Origin: Siccirubricoccus phaeus
Lineage (GTDB): Bacteria > Pseudomonadota > Alphaproteobacteria > Acetobacterales > Acetobacteraceae
Direction: 5' to 3'
Length of the DNA stretch: 64,000 nt
NCBI RefSeq assembly: GCF_008360935.1
Contig: NZ_SRXO01000003.1
Location: forward strand, 124,001 to 188,000
The number at the start of each line of letters is the position of its first letter. Position 1 is the stretch's first letter. Made by a program: the position numbers and the translations under genes. Below the pieces are notes generated by a model that saw only the letters and a list, made by a program, of their open reading frames with translations, was not told where the DNA came from and searched no databases. This document shows, piece after piece, positions 17,952-32,951 of this stretch.

Positions 17952-18914
17952 CTACTTGATCTTCTCGATCTCGTTGATCAGCCCCTGGGTCTCCTTGCCG
18001 AGCGCTTCCAGCTTGCCCCAGGCGGGCTCGATTTCGGGCGCGTTCGGCCATTTGGCGAGCCTGAAATCCGCGCGTCCGGCGCGGACCAAGGCGATCCAGC
18101 CATTGAGCAGGGCCTGGGTTTCGCTGATCACGCCCGAGATCTCGTCGATGCGCTTCGGATATTTCCCGAAGCAGTCGGCGAGCTTGTTCAGCGCCTCGCG
18201 CATCGCCTTCTGCGACGGGCTTTCCTTGGTGGCCGCCTTGGGGGGGTGGAGGCTGGGCGGCCGGGCCTTCATCCATTTCTGGATGTTCTTGAGGTCGCCG
18301 GTGAAGGTGGCGATCAGCTTCTCCGCCGGATCCTGGACCTTGATTGTCCACACCTCGTCCTTGCCACCCTTCTCGGGCAGCTTCGGGGCTTTCGGCCCGG
18401 CCAGGGAATCAGCTTCGAGCTTCAGGTCGAGCAATCCGCGGTCGAGCTCCTGGAACACCTTCAGGATCGCCTTGATCTTCGCCATGGTGTCCAGGAACTT
18501 CTTCGTCCCGCCTCCCTTCGGGTCGAAGGTCTCCGGCTGCTGCTGATCGGTCCCGCACAGATCGTCGATGGTGGCGTCCAGCAACTTGGTCAGTGTCCGC
18601 TTATAGGGCGCCAATTCCTTGTTGATCTGTGTCTGGGCCGGCTTCAGCGCCGAGGGCGGCACGTTGTTCTTCGAGGTGATCTTGTTTTCCTTCAGCACCT
18701 CATCGACCACATAGCTGATGGTGCCGAAGATGCCCTGGGCGGCCTTGTCGAAATCCTTTTCGATGTCCTTCAGCGTAATATGATCTTCATCGGTTTTTAC
18801 CGATTTGTCGTAGGTGAAGGTCGGCAGGTCGAGGAAGCTTTTGACGAGCTGGGGGAATTTGCCTTGGTAGCGCTCAGCGTATTTAACGCTGATCTTGACC
18901 TTCAACTCCGCCAT
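17952..18914 (-). CDS. Lysine-rich helical protein of unknown function, divergent from tagH
   Basis: A 320-residue protein not recognised. It looks almost entirely helical and charged, with no signal peptide, membrane segment or enzyme motif. By hand count it has about 44 lysines and 9 arginines, the reverse of its neighbours, which use arginine heavily; its codons are less GC-rich. This suggests transfer or unusual selection. Two starts are possible: ATG 18941 (weak site) and ATG 18914, preferred because a GGGGGG purine run lies 5 bases upstream and the protein then begins AELKVKISVKY. It is transcribed away from tagH across a 243-base shared region and may share a transcript with the OmpA-like gene. 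A T6SS accessory or effector-related role is inference from position. Confidence 0.7.
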   Translation of the reverse strand: MAELKVKISVKYAERYQGKFPQLVKSFLDLPTFTYDKSVKTDEDHITLKDIEKDFDKAAQGIFGTISYVVDEVLKENKITSKNNVPPSALKPAQTQINKELAPYKRTLTKLLDATIDDLCGTDQQQPETFDPKGGGTKKFLDTMAKIKAILKVFQELDRGLLDLKLEADSLAGPKAPKLPEKGGKDEVWTIKVQDPAEKLIATFTGDLKNIQKWMKARPPSLHPPKAATKESPSQKAMREALNKLADCFGKYPKRIDEISGVISETQALLNGWIALVRAGRADFRLAKWPNAPEIEPAWGKLEALGKETQGLINEIEKIK

Positions 18915-19157
18915 AGCCGCCCCCCACGCTCGGTCCGTCATTAACCCTAACCGAAATACACCCGGCTGCGTAGCGGTTCCGCTTCGTGCGGGGAGAATGT
19001 CGCGGTGTTACGCTGGTCACTTGCAATCTGCCGTGAGGCGAACGATCCTCCGGCCCGGTGGCCGGGGCGACGCTGCGCCTTTGTCACCTCAGGACAGCGA
19101 AAGGGTAGCTGCCATGTGCATGACCTGCCTCGCCACCTTTGTGCGCTGGCTTCGGAC
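18915..19157. promoter_or_regulatory. Divergent promoter region between the lysine-rich gene and tagH
   Basis: 243 bases with no supported gene, lying between divergent genes at the left edge of the T6SS island. It must carry promoters for both directions, but I found no clear -35/-10 pair or palindrome. The open frame reaching back to 19005 in the tagH frame shows no FHA-like sequence. Confidence 0.4.
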
Positions 19158-20942
19158 ATGCCGCTGACCCTCAGCCTGGCCGGGGAGGGCCCGCTCGGTC
19201 CGGTGCAGGAAGTGCGATCGCTTGATCGCGGCAGCCTCTCCCTCGGCCGCGGGCCGCAGAATGACTGGGTACTGCAGGATGCCGCCGCGCAGCTTTCCAA
19301 GCTGCACTGCACGATTGCCTTCGTCGCCGGCAATTACGTCCTGACAGATGTCAGCACCAACGGCGTGTTCCTGAACGGCGCCCCAGAGCGGATGCCACGT
19401 GACAGCCAGGTGGTGCTGCAGGAGGGCGATGAGTTCCGCCTGGGCGACTATGTGGTGCGGGTTTCCACCCAGGGGCCGGGCCCGGCGGCCTTCGCGCCGG
19501 TGGCCTCCACGCCCGTTGCCGGCGATCCCTTCGCCGCGGATCTGCTGGAAGACCCGCTGGGCCCGCCGCCGCCCGGCTTCTCCCACCCGCAGCGGATCGA
19601 AACGCCGATGCCGCGGGGGATGGACCCCTTCGATATCGCGGAGGAGAGCAGGCCGACCGCGCCGGAGATCGACAAATTCCGCGGCAGGGAGGCCGATCCG
19701 TCCTGGAGCGGCGCGGCACAGCGTGACAATGCGGATATCGGCAACCACTTCTACGCCGCGCCGCGCGTGGTGGCGCAGCCGACGCTGAGCGATGCCGATC
19801 TGGACGCGCTGCTCGGCGACCTGCCGCTGGGCCCGGGGGCCGGCGGGGCGGCCGCGCCGCCGCCGCCCTTCAACCCGCCGCCCACCCCCTTCGGCGGGCC
19901 GCAGATGGGGGGGCTTGCCCCCGTCGCCGGGACGGTGCCGGCGGATATCGACTTCGACGAGTTGCTGGGCGACCTGACGCCCGGGCAAGGCTTCGCGCCG
20001 GTGCCGCAGCCGGCGCCGGTCGTGGTGGAGACCCCGGCGGCCCCGCCCGCCCCGGTGTTGCTTGCCCCGGTGGTGGTGGCGGAAGCACCCGCGCTCCTGC
20101 CGGTGGTTGTCCCGGCCGCGCCGCCGGTGGTGGCGGAACTGCCGGCGGTGGCGCCCGCGCTGGCCGCCCCCGCGATTGCCCTGGTTCCGTCGGACCCGGC
20201 CGCCCCGCCGGCGGGGCGGAGCGAGAATCCCTTCGATGAGCCGGATCGGCCCGGCGTGGCCCTGGCCCTGCCGCCGGCCACCCCGGCGATGGCAGCCGCG
20301 CCGCTCCCCGCCCCGCCGGCGCCGGTGCCGGCCGCCACGGCCACCACTTCCACCGCGGATGCAGCACGGCTGATGGCGGCGTTCCTGGAAGGCGCGGGGC
20401 AGCCGAAGGTGGATCTCGCCGGCCAGGATCCGGAAGCCTATTTCCGGCTGGTCGGCCAGCTCATGAAGGTCATGGTCGAGAATCTGCGTGACGTTCTGAT
20501 GTCGCGCGCCGAGGTCAAGCGGGGCTTCGGTATCGAGCAGACCATGCTTCAGGCGCGGAACAACAACGTCCTGAAATTCTCGGTGACGTCGGAGGATGCG
20601 GTGGCGGCGATCCTCCAACCCGGACGGCCGGGCTACCTGCCGCCGCTGAAGGCGACCGAGGATGCGTTCCGCGACCTGCGGTCCCACCAATTGGCGGTCA
20701 TGGCCGGGGTGCAGGCGGCGCTGGTGGCGCTGCTGAAGCGCTTCGACCCGGCGGCGATCGAGGCCCGTATCACCTCGGCCGGGCTGCTTGGCAACCTGCT
20801 GCCCGGCAGCCGCAAATCCCGCACCTGGGAGCTGTTCTGCAACACCTATGCGGACATCGCCCGCGAGGCGGAGGAGGATTTCCAGGCGGTCTTCGGGCGT
20901 GAATTCGCCCGGGCCTATCAGGACCAGGAAAAGAAGCTGTAG
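19158..20942 (+). CDS. tagH: Type VI secretion FHA-domain protein TagH
   Basis: A 594-residue protein with a phosphothreonine-reading FHA domain at about residues 20-100 (GR at 30-31, SKLH at 47-50, STNG with Asn68-Gly69, FLNG). A long Pro/Ala-rich, probably disordered linker follows from about 110 to 400, then the helical C-terminal domain found in T6SS FHA proteins (from FLEGAGQP to the end). TagH/Fha proteins link a PpkA-type kinase to T6SS assembly; no kinase gene is in the window. ATG 19158 begins the domain; 51 upstream codons of open frame are shadow. First gene of the tagH-tssJKLM-vgrG run. Confidence 0.92.
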   Translation: MPLTLSLAGEGPLGPVQEVRSLDRGSLSLGRGPQNDWVLQDAAAQLSKLHCTIAFVAGNYVLTDVSTNGVFLNGAPERMPRDSQVVLQEGDEFRLGDYVVRVSTQGPGPAAFAPVASTPVAGDPFAADLLEDPLGPPPPGFSHPQRIETPMPRGMDPFDIAEESRPTAPEIDKFRGREADPSWSGAAQRDNADIGNHFYAAPRVVAQPTLSDADLDALLGDLPLGPGAGGAAAPPPPFNPPPTPFGGPQMGGLAPVAGTVPADIDFDELLGDLTPGQGFAPVPQPAPVVVETPAAPPAPVLLAPVVVAEAPALLPVVVPAAPPVVAELPAVAPALAAPAIALVPSDPAAPPAGRSENPFDEPDRPGVALALPPATPAMAAAPLPAPPAPVPAATATTSTADAARLMAAFLEGAGQPKVDLAGQDPEAYFRLVGQLMKVMVENLRDVLMSRAEVKRGFGIEQTMLQARNNNVLKFSVTSEDAVAAILQPGRPGYLPPLKATEDAFRDLRSHQLAVMAGVQAALVALLKRFDPAAIEARITSAGLLGNLLPGSRKSRTWELFCNTYADIAREAEEDFQAVFGREFARAYQDQEKKL

Positions 20943-21141
20943 GGCGCCACGGCAGGCCGGCGCGCCCGGCGCCCACGAGCCTCGCCGCTTCACAACTCGC
21001 GGCAAGGTGAGATGCCATGGCGGCCGGACCGTTCCACCTCTGGGCGAAGCCGGCGGAGTTAGGATACACTCACGGTGCTGTGGGTGTGGCAACAGGGCGG
21101 GCCAAAGCCGCCGGCACCCGTGGTCGTCTTGGGGGATATGC
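20943..21141. other. Gap between tagH and tssJ
   Basis: 199 bases, longer than any other spacing within the T6SS run. It may hold an internal promoter for tssJKLM; a weak AGGATACACT lies at about 21060-21069. No gene or strong hairpin seen. Confidence 0.35.
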
Positions 21142-21612
21142 ATGGCGCATACGGTGCTTCGCTTTGCCTGGCTGATTGGGCTCCTGGCGGGACTCTCGGC
21201 CTGTGCGCCGCCGGCTCCGCCGCCGCCAACCGTGGTGAACCTGACCCTGAAGGCGACCGGGGATGTGAACCCGACGGAAGCCGGCGCGGCGGCGCCGGTG
21301 CAGTTGCGCGTCTATCAGCTCACCTCGACCGCCGCCTTCAGTGGGGCCGAGTTCTTCGCCCTGTTGGACCGCGAAGCAGCCACCCTCGGCGATCAGCTCG
21401 TGCGGCGGGAGGATTTTCTCCTGGCGCCCGGTGCCACCCTTACCAGCACCCTGAATCCCGAGGCTCGAGTGACGTCGCTCGGGATCTTCATTGGGGTTCG
21501 CAGCGTCGATGGCGTGACCTGGCGTGCCACCTGGGCGGTGCCGTCCAACAAGACGAGCGCCGTCACCGTCACCGCCGCCAGATCCGGCCTCACCGTGGCG
21601 CCGACCCCGTGA
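21142..21612 (+). CDS. tssJ: Type VI secretion lipoprotein TssJ
   Basis: A 156-residue outer-membrane lipoprotein. The signal peptide ends in the lipobox LSAC with the lipidated Cys21, followed by a Pro-rich stretch and then the beta-sandwich typical of TssJ/SciN (VVNLTLKATGDVNP, VQLRVYQLTSTAAF, FLLAPGATLTS). TssJ anchors TssM to the outer membrane in the membrane complex. ATG 21142 is chosen for the signal peptide and the GGGGGA site just ahead. It is 36 bases before tssK. Confidence 0.93.
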   Translation: MAHTVLRFAWLIGLLAGLSACAPPAPPPPTVVNLTLKATGDVNPTEAGAAAPVQLRVYQLTSTAAFSGAEFFALLDREAATLGDQLVRREDFLLAPGATLTSTLNPEARVTSLGIFIGVRSVDGVTWRATWAVPSNKTSAVTVTAARSGLTVAPTP

Positions 21613-21648
21613 CGCGGTGGCCGGCGGCAGCGCGACGGAGCGCCTGAC

Positions 21649-22986
21649 ATGGGCTGGGACAACAAGGTCATCTGGAGCGAGGGGCTGTTCCTGCAGCCGC
21701 AGCATCTGCAGCAGCAGGACCGCTATGTGGAGCGCCTGGTGCGGGCCAGCACGGCCGGGCTGCGCCCCTTCGCCTGGGGACTCACAACGCTCGACATCGA
21801 CCGCGACCTACTGGCGCTGGGGAAATTCGCGACCCGTGCCATCTCTGGCATCCTGCCGGACGGCACGCCCTTCGCGGCCCCAGGGGACCTCGACCCGCCG
21901 CCGCCGATCGACCTGCCGGAAACGGCGCGCAACTCCATCATCTATCTGGTGCTGCCGGCCCGCCAGCCTGGGGTGACCGAGACGGCGCCGGCCGATGTGA
22001 CCGAGACCGTGGCCCGCTATGCCGCCGCGGAGCATGAAGCGGTTGACACCAATGCCGGCTACCAGTCCAACGCTACCGTCCCGGTCGGCAAGCTGCGGCT
22101 GCGCTACGCGCTGGAGCATGAGGCCCGGCAGGGCATGGCGGAGATCGGGCTGGCCCGCATCGTCGAGGTCCGCTCCGACAAATCCGTGGTGCTGGACGAG
22201 AATTACATCCCGCCCGTGCTGCTGAGCAGCGCCTCCTCCGTCCTCGGCGGCTTCGTCACCCAGGTCCAGGGCCTGGTGCACCACCGGGCGGAGGCACTGG
22301 CCGGGCGCGTTTCCGAGACGGCCACGCGCGGCGCCGCCGAATTCGCCGATTTCCTGCTGCTGCAGCTTTGCAACCGCAATGAGCCGGTCTTGACGCATAT
22401 GGCGGCGACGCTCGGCCAGCTCCATCCGGAGACCTTCTACCGCTACGCCGTCGGCCTAGCCGGCGAGCTGGCGACTTTCACCGAAAGCCGCAAGCGGCCG
22501 GCCGTCTTCCCGCCCTACCGGCATGAGGATCTGACCGCGACCTTCCGGCCGGTGATGGCGGCGATCCGGCAATCCCTCTCCGCGGTGCTGGAGCAGACCG
22601 CGGTGCCGATCCCGCTGCAGGAGCGGAAATTCGGCATCCGCGTAGCGCCGATCGCCGACCATTCGCTGGTCACCAACGCCACCTGGGTGCTGGTGGTCAC
22701 GGCGCAGATGCCGGCCGAGACGCTGCGCCGGAACCTGCCGAACCAGATCAAGATCGGACCGGTGGAACAGATCCGCGAGCTGATCAACGTGGCGCTGCCG
22801 GGCATTGCGGTGCGAGCGCTGCCCGTCGCGCCGCGCCAACTGCCTTACTACTCCGGCGCCTCCTATTTCGAGCTGGACCGCAGCAGCCCCTACTGGGCCG
22901 CGCTGTCCCGCTCCGGCGGCGCGGCGCTGCATCTTTCGGGCGAGTTCCCGGGCATCAACATGGAATGCTGGGCGATCAGGGGGTGA
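21649..22986 (+). CDS. tssK: Type VI secretion baseplate protein TssK
   Basis: A 445-residue protein of normal TssK length. The opening NKVIWSEGLFLQPQHLQQQD is the family's strongest signature, and the C-terminal region (PYYSGASYFELDRSSPYW and the GEFPGINMECWAI end) is also typical. TssK trimers connect the baseplate (TssEFG) to the TssJLM membrane complex. The gene ends 6 bases before tssL. The baseplate genes it must work with are not in this window. Confidence 0.95.
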   Translation: MGWDNKVIWSEGLFLQPQHLQQQDRYVERLVRASTAGLRPFAWGLTTLDIDRDLLALGKFATRAISGILPDGTPFAAPGDLDPPPPIDLPETARNSIIYLVLPARQPGVTETAPADVTETVARYAAAEHEAVDTNAGYQSNATVPVGKLRLRYALEHEARQGMAEIGLARIVEVRSDKSVVLDENYIPPVLLSSASSVLGGFVTQVQGLVHHRAEALAGRVSETATRGAAEFADFLLLQLCNRNEPVLTHMAATLGQLHPETFYRYAVGLAGELATFTESRKRPAVFPPYRHEDLTATFRPVMAAIRQSLSAVLEQTAVPIPLQERKFGIRVAPIADHSLVTNATWVLVVTAQMPAETLRRNLPNQIKIGPVEQIRELINVALPGIAVRALPVAPRQLPYYSGASYFELDRSSPYWAALSRSGGAALHLSGEFPGINMECWAIRG

Positions 22987-22992
22987 TGCGCG

Positions 22993-24351
22993 ATGTCCGA
23001 TGATCCCTTCGCCGAGCCCGAGGACACCGACCGCACGGTCATTCGTCCGCGCCCCGGCGGACGCGCGCCGGCGCCGCCGCCCATGGCGGCCCCGGTGCCC
23101 ACCATGTCGGCGAGCGCGCCGATCGGGCCGATGATGGCACTGCCCGTCATCGGGGTGAATCCGCTGGCCGCGGCGGCGGCGCCGGTGATGGGCGCCGCCA
23201 TCCGGCTGCTCGGCCGGTTCCAGCACCCGCAGCCGGACCAGCTCCGCCGCAGCATGGTGGAGGCGGTCCGCGAATTCGAGCGGCGGGCCCTGGCGACCGG
23301 CCTCGACACCCAGTCGCTGCGGGCAGCGCGCTACGCGCTCTGCGCCATGATCGACGACATGGTGCTCTCCACCCCCTGGGGCGCCAACAGCCCCTGGTCG
23401 CAGCAGAGCCTCACCAGCATCTTCCACAACGAGGTGGCGGGCGGCGAGCGCTTCTTCGAGATCCTGAAGCAGATGGAGGAGGATCCGGCGCGCCACGGCC
23501 AGGTGGTGGAGCTGATGTATCTCTGCCTCTCGCTCGGCTTCGTCGGCCGTTACCGGGTGCAGCAGCGGGGCGTCGCCTCGCTCACCGAATTCCGCGACGC
23601 GCTCTACCGCGTCATCCGGCAGCGGCGCGGGGAATTCGAGCGCGACCTCTCGGTGCGGTGGCAGGGCATCCCCGCCGGGCACCGGCCGCTGGCGCAGCGT
23701 GTGCCGCTCTGGCTGATCGGCACGCTCACCGTCTTCCTGCTGGCCTGCATCTATCTGGGCTTCAATTTCTCCCTGGCCGGCGATGCCGATGCGCTCGCGG
23801 CGCGGTACGCGCAACTGCCGCCCTCCGCCCCGCTGCTGCCGCCGCGCCCGCCCGGCGCGCCGCCGCCGCCACCGGCCCAGCCGGCGCCGCCACCGCCGCC
23901 TTCTTCCGCCCTGCCGCGGCTGCGTACCTTCCTGGCGCCGGAGATCCAGGCCCGGCTGGTGGATGTGCTGGAGGACAGCCAGACCATCACCATCCGGGTC
24001 GCGAACAACAACATGTTCGCCCTGGGTCAGGCGACGCTGAACGCCGGCTCCGTGCCCCTGCTGGAGCGCGTGGCGCGCGCGCTGAACGATGAGTCCGGCG
24101 CGATCCTGGTGACCGGCCATACCGACAGCTCGCCGATCCGTACGGCACGCTTCCCGTCGAACTGGCATCTCAGCCAGGCGCGGGCCGAGACCGTGGCCCG
24201 GCTGGTCGCCGGGAAGCTGGAGAATCCGAACCGGGTGCGGGCGGAGGGCAAGGCGGATACGCAGCCAGTCGCCTCCAACGACACACGGGAGGGCCAGCAG
24301 GCCAACCGGCGGACCGACATCATCCTGGTGAAGGCGGGGGATTCCCAGTGA
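22993..24351 (+). CDS. tssL: Type VI secretion inner-membrane protein TssL with OmpA domain
   Basis: A 452-residue extended TssL (DotU family). Domains in order: Pro-rich cytoplasmic leader (1-60), DotU helical domain (about 65-230), one transmembrane segment (WLIGTLTVFLLACIYLG, about 239-255), a Pro-rich periplasmic spacer, and a C-terminal OmpA-like peptidoglycan-binding domain from about 315. The last carries NNMFALGQATL near 338 and the TGHTDSS turn near 374-380. Such built-in OmpA domains replace a separate TagL. It overlaps tssM by 4 bases (GTGA). Confidence 0.94.
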   Translation: MSDDPFAEPEDTDRTVIRPRPGGRAPAPPPMAAPVPTMSASAPIGPMMALPVIGVNPLAAAAAPVMGAAIRLLGRFQHPQPDQLRRSMVEAVREFERRALATGLDTQSLRAARYALCAMIDDMVLSTPWGANSPWSQQSLTSIFHNEVAGGERFFEILKQMEEDPARHGQVVELMYLCLSLGFVGRYRVQQRGVASLTEFRDALYRVIRQRRGEFERDLSVRWQGIPAGHRPLAQRVPLWLIGTLTVFLLACIYLGFNFSLAGDADALAARYAQLPPSAPLLPPRPPGAPPPPPAQPAPPPPPSSALPRLRTFLAPEIQARLVDVLEDSQTITIRVANNNMFALGQATLNAGSVPLLERVARALNDESGAILVTGHTDSSPIRTARFPSNWHLSQARAETVARLVAGKLENPNRVRAEGKADTQPVASNDTREGQQANRRTDIILVKAGDSQ

Positions 24352-27300
24352 ACCGCTTCCTTTCCATGCTGTTCTCCCGCTGGGTGGTCACCTTCATCGG
24401 TGCCCTGCTGATCAGCCTGCTGATCTGGTTCTTCGGCGATCTGGTGGCGTTCGGCGAGTCGCGGCCGCTGGCGCCGGAATTCGCCCGTGTCATCGCGATC
24501 ATCCTCATCTTCGTGCTGTGGCTGGCGAACAACCTGCTGCGCATGTACCGCCAGCAGAAGCGGGACAAGAAGCTGGTCGAGGAAGTCTCGGCGCCGCCCA
24601 CTCAGGCGGAGCTGGACGCCGCGGCCACCGCCGATGAGGTGAACCTGCTGGCGACGCGCCTGAAGGAGGCGCAGCAGGCGTTGAAGAAGGCCGGCATGGC
24701 CGGGCGGTTCGGCACCGCGCTCTACCAGCAGCCCTGGTACATGTTCATCGGCCCACCCGGCTCGGGCAAGACCACGGCGCTGGTGAATTCCGGGCTGAAC
24801 TTCCCGCTGGCCGACAAGGGCGCGGTGCACGGCGTCGGCGGCACGCGGAATTGCGACTGGTGGTTCACCGACCAGGCGGTGCTGATCGATACCGCCGGCC
24901 GCTATACGACTCAGGACAGCCAGGAAAGCATCGACAGCAAATCCTGGCTCGGCTTCCTCAGCCTGCTGAAGAAGCACCGGCCGCGTCAGCCGATCAACGG
25001 TGTCATCCTCGCCATCAGCCTCTCCGACCTCTCCGCCATGAAGGAGAGCGAACAGTCCGACCACGCGCGGACCATCCGCAACCGCATCCGGGAGCTGCAT
25101 GACCAGCTCGGGGTGCGGATGCCGGTCTATGTCATGTTCACCAAGGCGGACCTCATCGCCGGCTTCGTCGAATTCTTCGACAATCTCGGCAAGGAGGAGC
25201 GCGAGCAGGTCTGGGGGATGACCTTCCCCCTGGACAATGGGAAGGACGCGGGCAACGCCGCGGTGACCAGGTTCGGCGCGGAATTCGACGCGCTGCTGCA
25301 GCGCCTGACGGACCGCATGCTGGAGCGGGTGCATCAGGAGCCGGACATGCAGCGCCGCGCCCTGATCTATGGCTTCCTGCAGCAGATGGCCTCGCTGCGC
25401 GAGACCGCGCAATCCTTCCTGACGGCGATCTTCCAGCCGAGCCGGCTCGAGCTTCCGGCCCTGCTCCGCGGCGTCTACTTCACCTCGGGCACCCAGAACG
25501 GCATGCCGATGGACCGGCTGCTGGGAGCCATGGCCAGCAATTTCGGCCTGCAGCGCCAGGCGGTGACGGCCTTCAGCGGCCAGGGGCGCAGCTACTTCCT
25601 TACCCGGCTGATGAAGGAGGTGGTGTTCCTTGAGAGCGGCTTGGTCAGCCTCGACCCGCGACTCGAGAAGCGCAACCGCCTGGTCTGGGGCGGCGCCTAT
25701 GCGGCGGCGGCGGTGGCCCTGCTCGGGATGACCGGCATCTGGTTCTATAGCTGGCTCGGGAACCGGGACCTGATCGCCGCGGCGCAGCTCGGCGTGACCA
25801 ATTACGAGGCGCAGCTCGCGATCCTGCGGCAGGATCCGGCGCCGGCCACCGATCTTCGGCCCGCCCTGCCGCCGCTGGCCACGCTGCGCACCCTGCCCGG
25901 CGGCTATGACCAGCGGGAGATGTCGACGCCGATCGGCCTCACCTTCGGCCTGTGGCAGGGGACGCGGCTGGGGACGCAGGCGCAGCAGGGCTACCGGCAT
26001 GCACTGAGCATGCTGCTGCTGCCCCGCCTGCTGGCCCGGGTCGAAACGGGGATGCGGGAGAATATCGGCAACCTCGACTACCTCTACACCGCGCTGAAGG
26101 TGTACCTGATCCTCGGCCGGCGCGGGCCGCTCGACGCCGATCTTGTGACGAATTGGCTGACCGCCGATATCGACCGCGACCTGCAGGATGACGAGACGGC
26201 GCGCGGCGCGGTCCTCGACCACATCACCGCGCTACTCGAGGAGCCGGTGGAGGAGGTCCCGCTCGACAACGTCCTGATCGACCAGGTGCGCAACGTGCTG
26301 CGCCAGATGCCGCTGGCGCAGCGGAGCTATCAGCGCCTGCTGACCAGCCAGCAGGTGAAGGCGCTGCCGGATTGGCGGATCGGCGACGCGGCGGGGCCGG
26401 CGGCGAACCGGGTCTTCGTGCTGCGGTCCGGCCGGCCGCTCACCACCGGGGTGGACGGCATCTTCACCTATCGCGGCTATCACCGCACCTTCCTCTCGCT
26501 GCTGCCGGAAGTGCTGCAGGATGTCAGCGAAGCGAGCTGGGTGCTGGGCGGCCGGGACGAGATCCAGGTCACCGATCTGCGGCGCATTTCCCAGCTACGG
26601 CGCGACGTCCAGGCGCTGTACTTCGAGGACTATATTCGCCGTTGGGACGCCATCCTGGCGGATGTGCAGATGCGCCCCTTCCAGACCACTTCCGATGCGC
26701 TGGATGTGCTGAACACCTTGTCCGGGCCGGTCTCGCCCTTCCGCAACCTGCTGCAGGCGATCGCGACCGAGACGACCCTGACCAAGGCGGACGACATCGA
26801 GGCGGCAGGGGCGCGGGCGACGGATACGGCGAGAGTGGCGGCACAGCGCGAATTGCGCCTCAACCTCTCGGCCCGGCAACGGACGGCGGTGGCGGCCTTG
26901 CAGGCGGCCTTCCGCTCCGACGATGCCCGCGCCCCGAACCCGGCGCAGCGAGTGGATGACCATTTCAAGCGGCTGCAGGATTTCGTCGGCACGCCGCAGC
27001 GGCCTGGCGAGATGGAGCAGGTCATCGCCAAGATGCTGCAGCTCTACCAGGGCTTCAGCCAGGCGGCGGCAGGCGGCGGCGCCGGGCTGCTGGGCGCCGC
27101 GGCCGGAGGTGGCGGTGGCGGCAGTCTGCCATCCCAGCTCCAGACCCTGGCGCGCAGCCTGCCGGCGCCGATCGACAACATGGTGGCCGCGACGGCGCGC
27201 AGTAGCGCCAGCGTGACTGCCGCCGGCGCCCGGGCGCAGATCGCCGAGAATTGGCGATCCAACATCGCGCCTTTCTGCGCGACGGCGCTGAACAATCGCT

Positions 27301-27932
27301 ATCCCTTCGTCGCCGGCAGCCCGATCGACGTGCCGATCGACGATTTCACCCGGCTGCTCGGGCCGGGCGGGATGATCGACGGCTTTTTTACCCAGAACCT
27401 CAAGGCCTTCGTCGACACGGCGACCAGGCCCTGGCGCTGGCAGGCGGTGGACCAGGCCCAGCTCGGCTTCTCGGCGGACAGCCTGGCGCAGTTCCAGCGC
27501 GCGGCGGACATCCGGGAAGGGCTCTTCACCGGCGGCCCGAACATGGTGGTGCGGTTCGAACTGCTGCCGGTCTCGCTCGATCCCTCCTTCGGCCAGGTGA
27601 GCATCGATCTCGATGGCCAGGTGCTGACCTATGCGCATGGGCCGCAGCAGCCGGTGCGCGTGCAATGGCCAGGGCCCAGCGGGCGCAACCAGGTGCGGCT
27701 GACCCTGACGCCGACCGCGGGCGTCCCGAGCATCACCGAGCGGACGGGACCCTGGGCCCTGTACCGGCTGCTCGATACGGCGCGGGTCGTCTCCGACGGT
27801 CAGCCGGACCGCTTCACGGTCACCTTCAACGCGGGTGGCCGCAACGCGGTGTTCCGGCTGACGGCCAGCAGCGTGATGAATCCTTTCACCATGACGGCGC
27901 TGCGGCAGTTCCGCTGCCCCGCCGGCCTCTAG
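24348..27932 (+). CDS. tssM: Type VI secretion inner-membrane protein TssM (IcmF family)
   Basis: An 1194-residue IcmF-family protein, translated from GTG within the tssL stop. Two N-terminal membrane helices (about residues 10-30 and 42-62) and a third at about 450-470 bracket the cytoplasmic domain, which has a complete Walker A motif, GPPGSGKTTALVNSG, near 135-149. The large C-terminal periplasmic part includes a Gly-rich loop (near 910-922) and the beta-rich end that contacts TssJ. It spans the envelope with TssL and TssJ. The intact Walker motif suggests NTP binding; not all TssM proteins keep it. Confidence 0.95.
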   Translation: MNRFLSMLFSRWVVTFIGALLISLLIWFFGDLVAFGESRPLAPEFARVIAIILIFVLWLANNLLRMYRQQKRDKKLVEEVSAPPTQAELDAAATADEVNLLATRLKEAQQALKKAGMAGRFGTALYQQPWYMFIGPPGSGKTTALVNSGLNFPLADKGAVHGVGGTRNCDWWFTDQAVLIDTAGRYTTQDSQESIDSKSWLGFLSLLKKHRPRQPINGVILAISLSDLSAMKESEQSDHARTIRNRIRELHDQLGVRMPVYVMFTKADLIAGFVEFFDNLGKEEREQVWGMTFPLDNGKDAGNAAVTRFGAEFDALLQRLTDRMLERVHQEPDMQRRALIYGFLQQMASLRETAQSFLTAIFQPSRLELPALLRGVYFTSGTQNGMPMDRLLGAMASNFGLQRQAVTAFSGQGRSYFLTRLMKEVVFLESGLVSLDPRLEKRNRLVWGGAYAAAAVALLGMTGIWFYSWLGNRDLIAAAQLGVTNYEAQLAILRQDPAPATDLRPALPPLATLRTLPGGYDQREMSTPIGLTFGLWQGTRLGTQAQQGYRHALSMLLLPRLLARVETGMRENIGNLDYLYTALKVYLILGRRGPLDADLVTNWLTADIDRDLQDDETARGAVLDHITALLEEPVEEVPLDNVLIDQVRNVLRQMPLAQRSYQRLLTSQQVKALPDWRIGDAAGPAANRVFVLRSGRPLTTGVDGIFTYRGYHRTFLSLLPEVLQDVSEASWVLGGRDEIQVTDLRRISQLRRDVQALYFEDYIRRWDAILADVQMRPFQTTSDALDVLNTLSGPVSPFRNLLQAIATETTLTKADDIEAAGARATDTARVAAQRELRLNLSARQRTAVAALQAAFRSDDARAPNPAQRVDDHFKRLQDFVGTPQRPGEMEQVIAKMLQLYQGFSQAAAGGGAGLLGAAAGGGGGGSLPSQLQTLARSLPAPIDNMVAATARSSASVTAAGARAQIAENWRSNIAPFCATALNNRYPFVAGSPIDVPIDDFTRLLGPGGMIDGFFTQNLKAFVDTATRPWRWQAVDQAQLGFSADSLAQFQRAADIREGLFTGGPNMVVRFELLPVSLDPSFGQVSIDLDGQVLTYAHGPQQPVRVQWPGPSGRNQVRLTLTPTAGVPSITERTGPWALYRLLDTARVVSDGQPDRFTVTFNAGGRNAVFRLTASSVMNPFTMTALRQFRCPAGL

Positions 27933-27965
27933 GCCGGCGGACGCCCTACTCGGGATTTGGCAAGT

Positions 27966-29987
27966 ATGGTCGATCTGCTCAACCGCCATGTCGAAATCGC
28001 GGTCAGCCCGGATCCGGGCTTCAAGCTGTTCTTCGACCGCCTAGTTGGGACGGAGGAATTGGGCCGACCCTTCCGCTATGAGGTGGATCTGGTCAGCACC
28101 TCGGTCACCAAGGCCGATCTGCTTGCCGTCATCGGCTCCAAGATGACGGTGAAGATCCTGCTGCCGGATGAAACGAATTACCGCTTCTTCAATGGGGTGA
28201 TCACCCGCGCCGCCTATCTCGGCCAGGGCAGCGGCTATGACCGCTACCGCTTCGAGCTGCGGCCGATGTTCTGGCTGCTCTCGCAGCAGGTGAAGTGCGT
28301 CATCTACCAGCAGAAGACCCTGGTCGACATCATCAAGCAGGCGCTGTCCGATGCCGGGATGGGCGGTCAGTTCGAAACCGCGATCGTCGATGCGGCCTCG
28401 CTGCCGGTGCAAGAATTCGTGGTGCAGTACCGCGAGAGCACCTTCGACTTCGTCAGCCGGCTGATGGAAGAGGTCGGCATCTATTACTATCACAAGCACG
28501 CGGATGGTGCGCACACCCTGATGCTGACCGACGACGCCTCCTCCCACCAGCCGATTCCGGGCGCGGCGGAGATCGCCTTCTTCGAGCCGGACCACACCTA
28601 TCGGCGCAAGGACGACCATATCTGGGACTGGCAGACGACGGCGAACATCACGCCGGCGCTCTACGTCCAGCGCGACTATAATTTCGAGACCTCGGGCACC
28701 GACCTCACCTCGCAGCTCCGTCTTGCGCCCTCCCACAGCGCCCATAATGCCTATGAGGTCTATGACTACCCGGGCAGCTACGCCACCACTGCGGAGGGCA
28801 GCAAGGTTGCGGCGATCCGCATGCAGGAACTGGCCGCGCCGCGCACGATCGCGCAGGGGGAGGGCAATATCCGCCCGCTCAGCACCGGCTATACCTTCAC
28901 CCTGAAGGATTTCGCCGATGACACCCAGAACATCTCGCACCTGGTCATCGGCGCCAGCTATTTCATGACCGTGGAGGAGACGACCGGGGAGGGCGGGGAA
29001 ACCCGCGACACCTTCCGGGCGGTCTTCCAGACAGTGCCAGCCACCACCCCCTGGCGGCCGCGGCGGCTGACGCGGCGGCCGGTCATCACCGGGCCGCAGA
29101 CGGCCAAGGTGGTCGGCCCCGCCGGCAATGACGACATCTATACGGACAAGTACGGCCGGGTGAAGGTCCAGTTCCATTGGGACCGCATCGGCACCAATGA
29201 CGAGAATTCCTCCTGCTGGATCCGCGTCTCCCAGCCCTGGGCAGGGCTCAGCTATGGTGGCATCATCCTGCCGCGCATCGGGCAGGAGGTGGTGGTCGAA
29301 TTCCTGGAGGGCGATCCCGACCGGCCGATCATCACCGGCCGCGTCTACAATGATGCGCAGACCGTGCCCTACGCCCTGCCCGGCGAGAAGACCAAATCCA
29401 CGCTGAAGAGCAAGTCATCGCCGAATGCCGATGGCTTCAACGAGATCCGCTTCGAGGACAAGGCGGGCTCGGAAGAGTTCTTCATGCATGCGCAGAAGGA
29501 CATGAACATCATCGTCCTGAACGACCAGACCAGCACCATCACGAAGAACCGGACGGTTACCATCAACGATGTCGACGACACGCTGACGGTGAAGACCGGC
29601 AAGCGCACCGTCACGATCAAATCCGACCATACGGTGACGGTGCAGAGCGGCAACCAGGCCATCAATGTCGATACCGGCAACCAGACCACGACCATCAAGA
29701 CCGGCAATCACGAGCTGAAGGTCAGCGCCGGCACCAGCAAGATCGATGCGGCGCAGAGCATCACCCTTGTCGTGGGCGGGACGAAGGCGGTGCTGGATAC
29801 CAGCTCCATCACCTTGTCGATCGGCGGCAGCACGATGAAGATGGACGCCACGAGCATCAAGCTCACCGCAGGCGCGAGTTCGGTGGAGCTCGGCCCGGCC
29901 GGTGCCAAGATGAGCGGGGCGCCGAATGCCGAGGTCTCGGGTGCTGCCATGGCCAGCATTTCCGGCGCGATGGTGAAGATCAATTGA
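27966..29987 (+). CDS. vgrG: Type VI secretion spike protein VgrG (TssI)
   Basis: A 673-residue VgrG. The gp27/gp44-like base domain occupies about residues 1-390, the gp5-like OB fold follows (YGRVKVQFHWD near 396, then SCWIRVSQPWAG and GRVYNDAQTVPY), and the C-terminus is a beta-helix of short repeats rich in TV, GN and TG from about 495 onward. No extra C-terminal toxin domain is present, so cargo would be carried by PAAR or adaptors. An in-frame TTG at 27957 is an alternative start 3 codons upstream. It follows tssM by 33 bases and is convergent with the unknown gene at 30218-31357. Confidence 0.95.
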   Translation: MVDLLNRHVEIAVSPDPGFKLFFDRLVGTEELGRPFRYEVDLVSTSVTKADLLAVIGSKMTVKILLPDETNYRFFNGVITRAAYLGQGSGYDRYRFELRPMFWLLSQQVKCVIYQQKTLVDIIKQALSDAGMGGQFETAIVDAASLPVQEFVVQYRESTFDFVSRLMEEVGIYYYHKHADGAHTLMLTDDASSHQPIPGAAEIAFFEPDHTYRRKDDHIWDWQTTANITPALYVQRDYNFETSGTDLTSQLRLAPSHSAHNAYEVYDYPGSYATTAEGSKVAAIRMQELAAPRTIAQGEGNIRPLSTGYTFTLKDFADDTQNISHLVIGASYFMTVEETTGEGGETRDTFRAVFQTVPATTPWRPRRLTRRPVITGPQTAKVVGPAGNDDIYTDKYGRVKVQFHWDRIGTNDENSSCWIRVSQPWAGLSYGGIILPRIGQEVVVEFLEGDPDRPIITGRVYNDAQTVPYALPGEKTKSTLKSKSSPNADGFNEIRFEDKAGSEEFFMHAQKDMNIIVLNDQTSTITKNRTVTINDVDDTLTVKTGKRTVTIKSDHTVTVQSGNQAINVDTGNQTTTIKTGNHELKVSAGTSKIDAAQSITLVVGGTKAVLDTSSITLSIGGSTMKMDATSIKLTAGASSVELGPAGAKMSGAPNAEVSGAAMASISGAMVKIN

Positions 29988-30217
29988 TCTCCGCTGGCGG
30001 TCACGGGTGAGGGTGAGGCCTGCAACTGGCCCCTGAGCGGCGGTTGCGCGCTGCAGGAACGGTCTGCCGCAGACGGGTGGGTCAAGGGTCAGCGCCGCCG
30101 GCATAGGCTCGCAGGCGCGGGCGCCCTGGCCACTCCTGGCTGAATTGGATTCCCGACGTCCCGTCGCCTCGCGTCGTCAGGGGCGGCCTGCCGCATTCCG
30201 CGATGGCGTCGCGCGGC
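29988..30217. other. Convergent intergenic region after vgrG
   Basis: 230 bases between the vgrG stop and the stop of the opposite-strand unknown gene. No gene supported and no hairpin with a T-tail found. Confidence 0.4.
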
Positions 30218-31357
30218 TCAGAAATCCGGCAGGACAAGGGAGGGGTTGGGCTGTCCCGGAATGGCGGGCGGCTTGACCGCAGGCGCATCCTTGCCGGGTA
30301 GCCCGTTCGGCACCAGGACCGGCCCCATATTCTGCAGCAGCGCCAGGGCATTGAGGCCGGGAATAGAATCCTGGATCGGCAGCTTGTCGGGAATCTTCCA
30401 ATCGACCTTGGCGATCTCGGACAGGTCGGTGTTCATGATCTCCTCCACCGTTTCCGGCGTCGGCAGCGCCGGCGGCGTGTTAGCCAGGTTGGCGAATTGC
30501 TGCGGCCCGATGCAGGAGGGGATGGGCGGGACGTTCAGCCGCAGGATGGCCGCGATATGGGCACGGAAGACCGGCAGGTTCAGCGCGATATCGGCGATCG
30601 GCCAGATGGCGTTGATGCGTGCCAGCAGATAGAGATTCGGCAGCAGCGAGGGCATGACGGCCAGTATCGGCAGCCGGACCGAAAGCAGCATGCGGAGCTG
30701 CGCCGAGAAATAGGGAATAGTGCCCGGCAGCCGCAGATTGACACCCATCATCTCTGCGATGGAGAACAGCATGCGGACATTGAGCAGATACCGCAGGATG
30801 CCCATCAGGTTCGGCAGCATGTAGGGCGGCGGCAGGGGCACGCCGAAGGCCGGCAGGGCCTTCGGCAGATTCTCCTGGATCCGTAGGGTAGCATCGACCT
30901 GGGAGGGGCCGATGTTGAGGCGAACCCGGAGCAGGGCGCCGATATTCATCAGCATGTGCAGCCCGCTCAGCGGCCCCCAGGGCATGCGGGCGATCAGGGA
31001 CAGCGCGCTGAGGTCGAGCTTTTCCATCAACGCCGCCAGAAGCTGCATGGAATGCGGGATGGGAAAGCCGAGCCGGACGGCCACCAGGAAGCGCAGATTG
31101 GCCAATACCCCCAGCATCGGCATGCCGTTCAGCAGGGGGATGGGCGGCAGCACCATAGACATCAGCCGCCGCAGCAGGTCGGGGGGCAGCGTCGGGTAGC
31201 ACCCCGCTGGGACGCCCAGGGCCTGGCCGGAGGGGATCATGCCCAGGCGCTGCTCAAGCGCCGCCATATGCGGCGGGATCGGGGCGTGCAGGGTGGGCAA
31301 TTGTGTCGCGAGTTTGGCGATATTGCTGATCGCCTGCTGGTCGATGCGGTAGTCCAT
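30218..31357 (-). CDS. Leu/Pro/Met-rich repeat protein of unknown function between vgrG and PAAR genes
   Basis: A 379-residue protein I cannot assign. It is very rich in Leu, Ile, Pro and Met and has an internal repeat with core pattern L--LL-VRL---I: LRFLVAVRLGFPI (88-100), IGALLRVRLNIG (139-150), LRYLLNVRMLFSI (188-200), LRMLLSVRLPILA (221-233), LYLLARINAIWPI (242-254) and a weaker copy at 268-280. No signal peptide or catalytic motif; the C-terminal 80 residues are Pro-rich and less hydrophobic. ATG 31357 is used; the frame opens 14 codons earlier without a good site. It is antisense to the T6SS genes and divergent from the PAAR gene (136 bases apart). A pore-forming effector, adaptor or scaffold are possibilities, all inference. 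Confidence 0.75.
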   Translation of the reverse strand: MDYRIDQQAISNIAKLATQLPTLHAPIPPHMAALEQRLGMIPSGQALGVPAGCYPTLPPDLLRRLMSMVLPPIPLLNGMPMLGVLANLRFLVAVRLGFPIPHSMQLLAALMEKLDLSALSLIARMPWGPLSGLHMLMNIGALLRVRLNIGPSQVDATLRIQENLPKALPAFGVPLPPPYMLPNLMGILRYLLNVRMLFSIAEMMGVNLRLPGTIPYFSAQLRMLLSVRLPILAVMPSLLPNLYLLARINAIWPIADIALNLPVFRAHIAAILRLNVPPIPSCIGPQQFANLANTPPALPTPETVEEIMNTDLSEIAKVDWKIPDKLPIQDSIPGLNALALLQNMGPVLVPNGLPGKDAPAVKPPAIPGQPNPSLVLPDF

Positions 31358-31493
31358 GCGCGCAATCCGCCCGTTTCTATGCCGCCGTTCCGCAAGCATA
31401 CTGTCGCGAGGTCGAGGAGTCAGGGCATTCGCCGGCTTTCCGGAACGGAAGCGGTCGGATTAGACTACACCGCTGCGTGAAAAGGAGGGGGCC

Positions 31494-31877
31494 ATGCCGC
31501 CAGCGGCGCGAATCGGCGATATGGTGCTGCAGGATGGGCCGCACTGCCACGCCCCCATCCATCCGCCCGCGCCCGTTCCCACGCCCGTGCCGCACCCGCC
31601 GATGCCGCTTGCCATCACGGTCGGCGTGCCGACTGTGCTCATCGGCGGCGCACCGGCGGCGACCGTGACGAGCATCACTGCGCCCTGCACCCTGGCGGCC
31701 TGCGTTCCCGGCGGTCCGGGCATGGTGGCCATGGGCTCGGCGACTGTCCTGATCGGCGGGCTCCCCGCGGCCCGGGTGGGCGACATGACCTCGCATGCCG
31801 CCTGCGTTGCCGTGATCCCGATGCCCACGGGCAAGGTCCTCCCGCCCGGCTGTCCGACGGTGATGATCGGCGGCTGA
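31494..31877 (+). CDS. PAAR-domain protein (T6SS spike tip)
   Basis: A 127-residue stand-alone PAAR protein. It shows the repeated Gly/Pro/Val hairpins of the fold: PPAARIGDMV at the start, VGVPTVLIGGAPAATV, MGSATVLIGGLPAARVGD, and the closing GCPTVMIGG. His and Cys residues in HCHAPIH, CTLAAC and HAAC may supply the zinc site. It sharpens the VgrG spike and often recruits effectors. No extension is present, so any effector is separate. It lies 6 bases before a methyltransferase gene. Confidence 0.92.
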   Translation: MPPAARIGDMVLQDGPHCHAPIHPPAPVPTPVPHPPMPLAITVGVPTVLIGGAPAATVTSITAPCTLAACVPGGPGMVAMGSATVLIGGLPAARVGDMTSHAACVAVIPMPTGKVLPPGCPTVMIGG

Positions 31878-31883
31878 GCCGGC

Positions 31884-32951
31884 ATGCGCCGCCGCCATTT
31901 CGACGCTTTCCGCCCGCTGTGCCCGCATTGCCTGCGCAGCGGTGCGGGGGAGCAGGCCCTGCTGCTGGCCCATGTGGCGGCGGAGGAAAGCGGGGACATC
32001 CTCTCCGGCATCCTGCAATGCCCCAACCCCGCCTGCTTGCATGAATACCCGATCCTCGGTGGCGTGCCGCTGATCGTGCCGGAGCTGCGCCGGATGCTCG
32101 GCGAAAGGGCGGTGGAGCTGCTGCTGCGGGAGGATCTGGATCCGCTGCTGGAAAGTCTGCTGGGCGATGCGATCGGTCCCGATAGCTGGTTCGACAGCAT
32201 CCGCCTCACCGCCTCCACCTATGGCTGGGACGGTTATGCCGATCTCGACCCGGCGGAGGAGGACGTACCGCACGGGCCGCGTCCGGGGGCCGTGCGGCGT
32301 TGCCTGGCGCGGCTGCTGGACCTCGCGCCGGGCGTCGGGGGCGGGCGGCTGATCGATGCTGGCTGCGGCGCCGGCCGGACCAGCTTCGACCTGGCGGCGC
32401 GGCATCCGGAGGCGCTGGTGCTCGGCTGCGACGTCAATCTCGGCGTGCTGCGCCTGGCGCGGCGGGCGTTAGAAGGTCGGATGCGCTATCCGCGTCGCCG
32501 CATCGGGTTGGTCTATGACCGGCGGGAATTCGCGTTGCGGCTGTCGGGCGCCGAGCGGGTGGATTTCTGGGCCTGCGATGCCGGCTGCCTGCCCTTTGCG
32601 CCCGGCGGGGCGGCGCTGGTGGCGGCGCTCAACCTGTTCGACTGCGTGCCGGATCCGCCGCAATTGCTGGCGGCCCTGGCGGCGCAATTGGCGCCGGGAG
32701 GCCATCTCCTGCTGGCCACGCCCTATGACTGGGCCACGCGGGCCACGCCAGTGACGTCCTGGGTCGGCGGCCATTCCCAGCGCGGCACCATGGCCGGCGC
32801 AGCCGAGCCGCTGCTGCGCAGCCTGGTCACGGCGCAGCCAGGGCTGGCGATTCAGGGCGAGGATCTGGCCTTCCCCTGGCAGACGCGGCTGCATGACCGT
32901 TCGGCCGTGGCCTATCGGGCACATCTCCTGGCGGCATCCAGGCAGGGCTGA
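31884..32951 (+). CDS. SAM-dependent methyltransferase with N-terminal zinc ribbon, downstream of PAAR
   Basis: A 355-residue protein. The N-terminal 70 residues resemble a Trm112-like zinc-binding module (Cys13, Cys16, Cys46, Cys51, then [11 protein letters not shown]). A class I methyltransferase domain follows, with motif [17 protein letters not shown] near residue 155, an acidic motif II ([10 protein letters not shown]) and the motif IV-like [12 protein letters not shown]. Residues 75-140 are not recognised. The substrate could be a protein, lipid or small molecule. Its start is 6 bases after the PAAR stop, so the two are almost certainly co-transcribed. A role in T6SS, for example modifying a secreted partner, is inference. 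Confidence 0.82.

Follow-up and report, generated by a model that had tools for sequence, protein, structure and literature searches.

The window analysed here is a 64,000-nucleotide stretch of DNA from the soil bacterium Siccirubricoccus phaeus. It carries the gene order FHA-TssK-TssL-TssM-VgrG-X-PAAR (window positions 19005-32951), one part of a type VI secretion system (T6SS) that is split in this genome (Table 1). The other part lies on another contig (L102:4855-13738), where TagF, TssA, TssB and Hcp were assigned by Pfam, and a phosphatase, TssC and others by position or likeness. Between vgrG and the PAAR gene, an antisense open frame of 379 codons encodes a protein that we refer to as protein X; it is divergent from PAAR and convergent with VgrG. 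The original prediction had placed such a frame here and described its product as Leu/Pro/Met-rich and of no known family. Frame and position were borne out, and the residue make-up agrees (L 18%, P 14%, M 5.5%). The mechanical ORF opens 14 codons upstream, at 31399, and MDYRID was taken as the start because the alignable region begins there in both sister species.

Table 1. Protein X and neighbouring features, with window coordinates
Feature	Position	Strand	Basis
T6SS FHA protein	19005..20942	+	PF20232, E 1.1e-55; FHA, E 2e-14
TssK	21649..22986	+	PF05936, E 4.5e-156
TssL (DotU + OmpA)	22993..24351	+	PF09850, E 4.8e-68; PF00691, E 3.4e-14
TssM	24348..27932	+	PF06744 match
VgrG spike protein	27957..29987	+	TIGR03361, 580.8 bits, E 2.3e-174; PF05954, E 2.4e-79; protein given from 27996
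Protein X, 379 aa	30218..31357	-	ORF, conservation, purifying selection, family relations
Divergent intergenic region X/PAAR, 136 bp	31358..31493	.	Gap roughly 90-240 bp across PAAR-adjacent loci (match coordinates)
PAAR spike-tip protein, 127 aa	31494..31877	+	PF05488, 50.3 bits, E 2.9e-13
SAM methyltransferase	31884..32951	+	PF13649, E 3.4e-10; TIGR04345, 85 bits, under its 170 cut-off

Codon-position differences and dN/dS identify X as a real protein under purifying selection. The gene is present in 3/3 Siccirubricoccus members examined. Comparison with S. soli gave codon-position differences of 28/18/109 and a dN/dS of 0.126, and comparison with S. deserti gave a dN/dS of 0.368. The latter is similar to the values for VgrG (0.30) and the methyltransferase (0.31), whereas TssM (0.23), TssL (0.17) and PAAR (0.12) are lower. 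No promoter was identified in a three-species alignment of the X/PAAR intergenic region. Protein X had no match in Pfam (0 families at E <= 1), NCBIfam, PHROGs or PADLOC, and a search of PDB chains with profile A3 returned none at E <= 10, in line with the earlier statement that the family is not a known one. Pfam at E <= 1 likewise detected no PAAR or DUF4280 domain in the window protein itself.

Sequence comparison places X in a previously undescribed protein family. A direct search of 100 relatives returned the 3/3 genus members and one chance row. A three-sequence profile run against 397 Acetobacteraceae genomes recovered the genus members again, together with two chance rows and a copy in G326 that has 38% identity and is likewise divergent from PAAR. 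Further antisense Ala/Leu-rich proteins were seen upstream of PAAR in PAAR-bearing genomes (30/397 genomes with PAAR, of which 28/30 loci were parsed). Profile A4, built from five of these proteins, had matches in 22/397 genomes at E <= 0.001. X was thus detected in 26/397 sampled Acetobacteraceae genomes (4 + 22, with three surveys of 397 genomes taken as one draw, as sizes and handles agree), and 25/26 of these carry one copy. Pfam searches of six relatives gave just three unrelated weak families (E 0.06-0.28). One relative (L094:855-2618) has a C-terminal tail of ~240 residues with Gly/Ala/Leu/Ser repeats and no Pfam domain.

Profile-profile comparison, BLAST and one profile match link the window's X to this wider family. 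In hhalign, the window set and the A4 set matched with a probability of 79% (E 1.6e-5) when five sequences were used and of 93.5% (E 2.3e-7, score 58.7) with eighteen. As decoys, the reversed columns scored 18.2, while 100 column shuffles peaked at 21.9 and 100 shuffles of 20-column blocks at 37.8. The alignment is collinear up to a common W-x-[VI]-P near the C terminus. Members in six loci are also connected by BLAST at E <= 1e-4, and L093 is matched by profile A3 (E 4.5e-6, from a search of a small local set). In G000, the genome of the window, profiles A4 and A5 both miss the X gene (first-look candidates scored in such searches: 5/31 for A4 and 14/39 for A5). A class search of 385 genomes with A3 found the window's genome alone, apart from dropped rows, and a class search with A5 found 0/142, G000 among them. 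As A5 misses G000, it would also miss other members at a like distance, and confinement of X to Acetobacteraceae is therefore not proven. The rows dropped in these searches were G094 (E 4.4e-4), which has four internal stops and overlaps other ORFs, G103 and G058 (E 0.0036 and 0.0076), and G446 (two rows), G730 (two rows) and G058 at E 0.002-0.01. All except G094 were judged by eye to be chance matches within other genes, presumably ammonia-lyase-like, FlgI-like and others.

We classified 27 X loci from gene maps and BLAST, with the window itself and L008 included (G155 counts as two loci; G135 and G300, where X is in split pieces, count as one each). T6SS genes adjoin X at 22/27 loci. PAAR adjoins at 13 of them and is always divergent (its place in L050, L051, L055, L088 and L093 was taken from PAAR search coordinates). 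An Hcp-like gene adjoins at seven loci, which have no PAAR; it was Pfam-confirmed in L083 only (E 5.7e-9), and the rest were assigned by likeness. Other T6SS genes adjoin at two loci (L082 and L095), one locus is at a contig end (L085) and four are orphans (L092, L094, L097 and L098). PAAR relatives at E <= 1e-15 occur in 30/397 Acetobacteraceae, 21/30 of which also have X. Across the 397 genomes, X and PAAR are found together in 21, X alone in 5 (two being DUF4280 fusions) and PAAR alone in 9. Inspection of the gene maps by eye revealed no recurring neighbour fit for an immunity protein among the visible neighbours, with several contigs ending beside X. A methyltransferase relative lies downstream of PAAR in 11/13 PAAR-adjacent X loci, window counted, and could modify the tip or a cargo. 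The window's methyltransferase has an OvoA C-terminal-like domain and a weak Trm112-like start.

T6SS markers were profiled in 80 chosen genomes, comprising 26 with X and 54 without (40 from a one-per-genus list, 7 with PAAR and 7 genus mates). The VipB sheath gene was found in 26/26 X genomes vs 27/54 X-less genomes. TssM was found in 25/26 vs 22/54 (Fisher p 7e-7, a guide only, as the X-less set is not random and relatedness is uncorrected). The sole X genome without a TssM match, G326, has VipB. G030 and G156 are Acetobacteraceae with TssM and VipB but no X. The original prediction of a T6SS link thus survived a search for homologues in genomes lacking the system, and it agrees with the T6SS neighbours found at 22/27 loci, including the divergent PAAR at 13. 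By gene neighbourhood and genome co-occurrence, X is tied to type VI secretion.

An AlphaFold model of the relative L081, made with 25 sequences, is all-helical and confident (pLDDT 89.2, pTM 0.84). The predicted helices span residues 28-39, 66-86, 93-113, 121-141, 163-185, 193-204, 214-234, 243-264, 271-281 and 319-338, plus shorter ones. L081 is 20% identical to the window protein in the alignment, and the window protein's own model has a pLDDT of 34.8. No significant match to the L081 fold was found among PDB or viral models. The 25 aligned members range in GRAVY from -0.37 to 1.05 and in charged residues from 2.6% to 25%. GRAVY is 0.5-1.05 in 16/25 members, some with up to three transmembrane (TM)-like windows, and below 0.2 (-0.37 to 0.18) in 7/25, where L008 has a single TM-like window and the other six lack any. 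TM-like segments were called with a simple hydropathy window rather than with a trained predictor. The helical, hydrophobic-looking character first attributed to X is supported.

We then compared the predicted surface, using the 85 alignment columns charged in at least 2/4 hydrophilic members (L088, L093, L095 and L008; the groups were hand-chosen). At these columns, small or neutral residues, mostly Ala, Gln, Ser and Asn, make up 71% in eight hydrophobic members, and large hydrophobics 15% vs 39% across all columns (0/2000 random draws as low). Three members of the window's group have 23% large hydrophobics vs 42% (0/2000). The hydropathy and surface tests found no conserved membrane-spanning or membrane-inserting segments. 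We read X as one soluble fold whose surface is neutralised in many members, not as a membrane protein. The X of S. phaeus and its relatives is probably a water-soluble helix bundle.

Six copies of a core L--LL-VRL---I, five good and one weak, had been reported in the window protein. Four stood as good copies, at residues 88, 139, 188 and 221 (6, 5, 6 and 6 matches to the seven named letters), and those at 242 and 268 proved poor (3 and 1 matches). Windows with at least five of the seven letters number 4 in X vs 0.14 expected (0/2000 shuffles), a figure that is flattering, as the pattern was taken from the very sequence scored. When the profiles were compared with themselves, the wider family showed a weak repeat (E 0.0013), but the best off-diagonal match for the window's subfamily, at E 0.09, was not convincing. 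By alignment, each of the six places maps onto its own predicted helix of the L081 model; the places thus look less like a repeated sequence than like the helix faces that point into the core.

The two cysteine motifs, CxC at the N terminus and C-x(2-3)-CD at the C terminus, go together: 18 members have both and 6 have neither (24/24 assessable of 25; L091 was excluded because its N terminus is cut, and L087 was read with upstream codons). The members without these pairs are the sisters L085/L086 and the window's four-member subfamily, i.e., two lineages, not six events; the window's own X has neither motif. In members outside the window's subfamily, the cysteines may form a metal or disulphide clamp joining the termini.

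Two relatives from two genera (L097 and L098) carry the X domain followed by a Gly-rich linker and a DUF4280 domain (E 5.7e-30 and 1.1e-31, respectively). L097 is a 564-aa frame in G246, and L098 is 494 aa in G135, cut by the contig end. The fusion is found at 2/27 X loci, and 24/26 X genomes are without it. G246 and G135 have TssM and VipB elsewhere in the genome, and neither has the window's PAAR type at E <= 1e-15. According to the accessible part of one paper, DUF4280 folds as a PAAR-like tip and has cysteines that bind metal, and IglG has a helical N-terminal extension that binds a partner (PMC5014421); DUF4280 is also treated as a PAAR-like tip domain in the available portion of another (PMC8651086). 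A part covalently joined to the tip should be exported, and therefore the X fold can probably be exported. If the tip is exported, fused X could not be a protein retained in the cytosol. This fusion is the strongest clue to the mechanism of X, and the scaffold or cargo role suggested earlier fits it. L097 and L098 are distant, charge-poor members away from T6SS genes, and their role may therefore differ from that of the window member.

We propose that X is a soluble, charge-poor helix bundle that would travel as a passenger, loaded on the PAAR tip and exported with it, and we give this reading, drawn from sequence and gene context, a probability of about 0.5. In two relatives the loading would be covalent, with X as the N-terminal part of the DUF4280 tip protein. 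The divergent PAAR adjoining X in 13 loci suggests that unfused X would bind the neighbouring PAAR and use the same tip in trans, leaving together with the spike tip. As no recognised enzyme motif, recurring immunity gene or membrane-type surface was seen, X may be a non-enzymatic payload needing no bacterial immunity, or an adaptor attaching another payload. We only tentatively extend this to a new class of T6SS tip cargo, of which X would be the founding example, namely a non-enzymatic, immunity-less helical domain of new fold, carried on PAAR or fused to DUF4280, with a charge-stripped surface in many members that possibly aids the crossing of a membrane or target envelope. Its targets could be non-bacterial, which would explain the missing immunity gene.

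Eag and Tap are non-exported chaperones or adaptors for spike loading. The main rival for unfused members is that X would load or assemble the VgrG-PAAR spike and stay behind, like DUF2169/Tvp, Eag and Tap. The single copy in 25/26 genomes and the VgrG-like dN/dS (0.37 vs 0.30) would also fit such an apparatus accessory, as would the location beside PAAR, Hcp-like or other T6SS genes at 22/27 loci, the presence in 3/3 genus members examined, an evolutionary rate like that of the methyltransferase and the lack of a recurring immunity neighbour in view. However, members in two genera are covalently joined to a PAAR-like tip domain, and we therefore consider a retained chaperone doubtful. Pfam also gave no accessory-family match: neither the window protein nor six relatives matched DUF2169, DUF4123/Tap or DUF1795/Eag, which we take to be present as Pfam families. 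The original prediction of a membrane-active or pore-forming effector draws on the predicted helices of 20-23 residues, the GRAVY of 0.5-1.05 in 16/25 members, the up to three TM-like windows in some and a charge as low as 2.6%. It fared poorly, and we regard it as improbable, since 6/7 members at GRAVY -0.37 to 0.18 have no TM-like window, the surface columns are small or neutral rather than large hydrophobic, and no recurring immunity gene was seen among the visible neighbours. Finally, rather than delivered cargo, X could be a structural component of the tail or baseplate in a T6SS sub-lineage, for instance a tip collar or a tube plug. X often adjoins an Hcp-like gene, and extra sheath paralogues (divergent VipB, 130-170 bits) occur in 20/26 X genomes vs 1/54 X-less genomes, a count that includes the partial matches of G135 (87 bits, X genome) and G208 (133 bits, X-less). 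A structural role is nonetheless very unlikely in our view, given the orphan copies at 4/27 loci, of which two have a tip domain of their own attached, and the two genomes with TssM and VipB yet no X (G030 and G156).

T6SS tips carry enzymes and toxins. If X is a tip passenger as proposed, the cargo range of PAAR-type tips would extend to a helical protein with neither a recognised catalytic motif nor an immunity partner nor a known fold. X would also be a family-specific T6SS component for environmental Acetobacteraceae, and one fold spanning 2.6% to 25% charged residues would provide a natural series for protein solubility. No description of a protein like X was found in the literature searched. 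L097/L098 are like Francisella IglG as described in the accessible part of PMC5014421, which has a C-terminal DUF4280 and a helical N-terminal part, and whose extension is used to link another protein to the tip. In IglG, however, DUF4280 begins at residue 59 and the extension is short, whereas X has ~350 residues. DUF2169/Tvp genes, in the available text of two papers (PMC11883445; PMC13373197), are accessory genes of the T6SS that act on the spike tip and, like X, neighbour vgrG and PAAR-type genes, but DUF2169 pairs with DUF4150-type tips and X with PF05488 PAAR or DUF4280. The pore-forming T6SS effector Tke5, as presented in the accessible portion of PMC12909789, shares T6SS linkage with X. 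X differs from such pore-forming effectors in its soluble-type surface and in lacking both a conserved TM-like segment and, among the neighbours seen, a recurring immunity gene.

Several further T6SS-related genes were observed. In the window's genome, contig 45 (L101:8222-10195) encodes a 658-aa natural fusion of VipA and VipB (PF05591, E 1e-13; PF05943, E 2.9e-42), placed away from both T6SS clusters seen; among the weak-class VipB matches (130-170 bits), the VipA part was checked in L101 alone. A 342-aa neighbour of this fusion and a 329-aa protein at window 17952-18941, encoded next to the T6SS FHA gene but on the other strand, both have no Pfam match and are unrelated by BLAST. S. deserti has a second PAAR (L048:6966-7352; 75% identity), which clusters with genes for distant relatives of TssK, TssL and TssM; no X match was found in this cluster. 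A second full VipB sheath protein (PF05943 and VipB_2) is encoded between VgrG and the Hcp-like gene at L083:9950-11371 and L089:8836-10263. Absent from the window and S. deserti, genes of similar size and place occur in other X loci.
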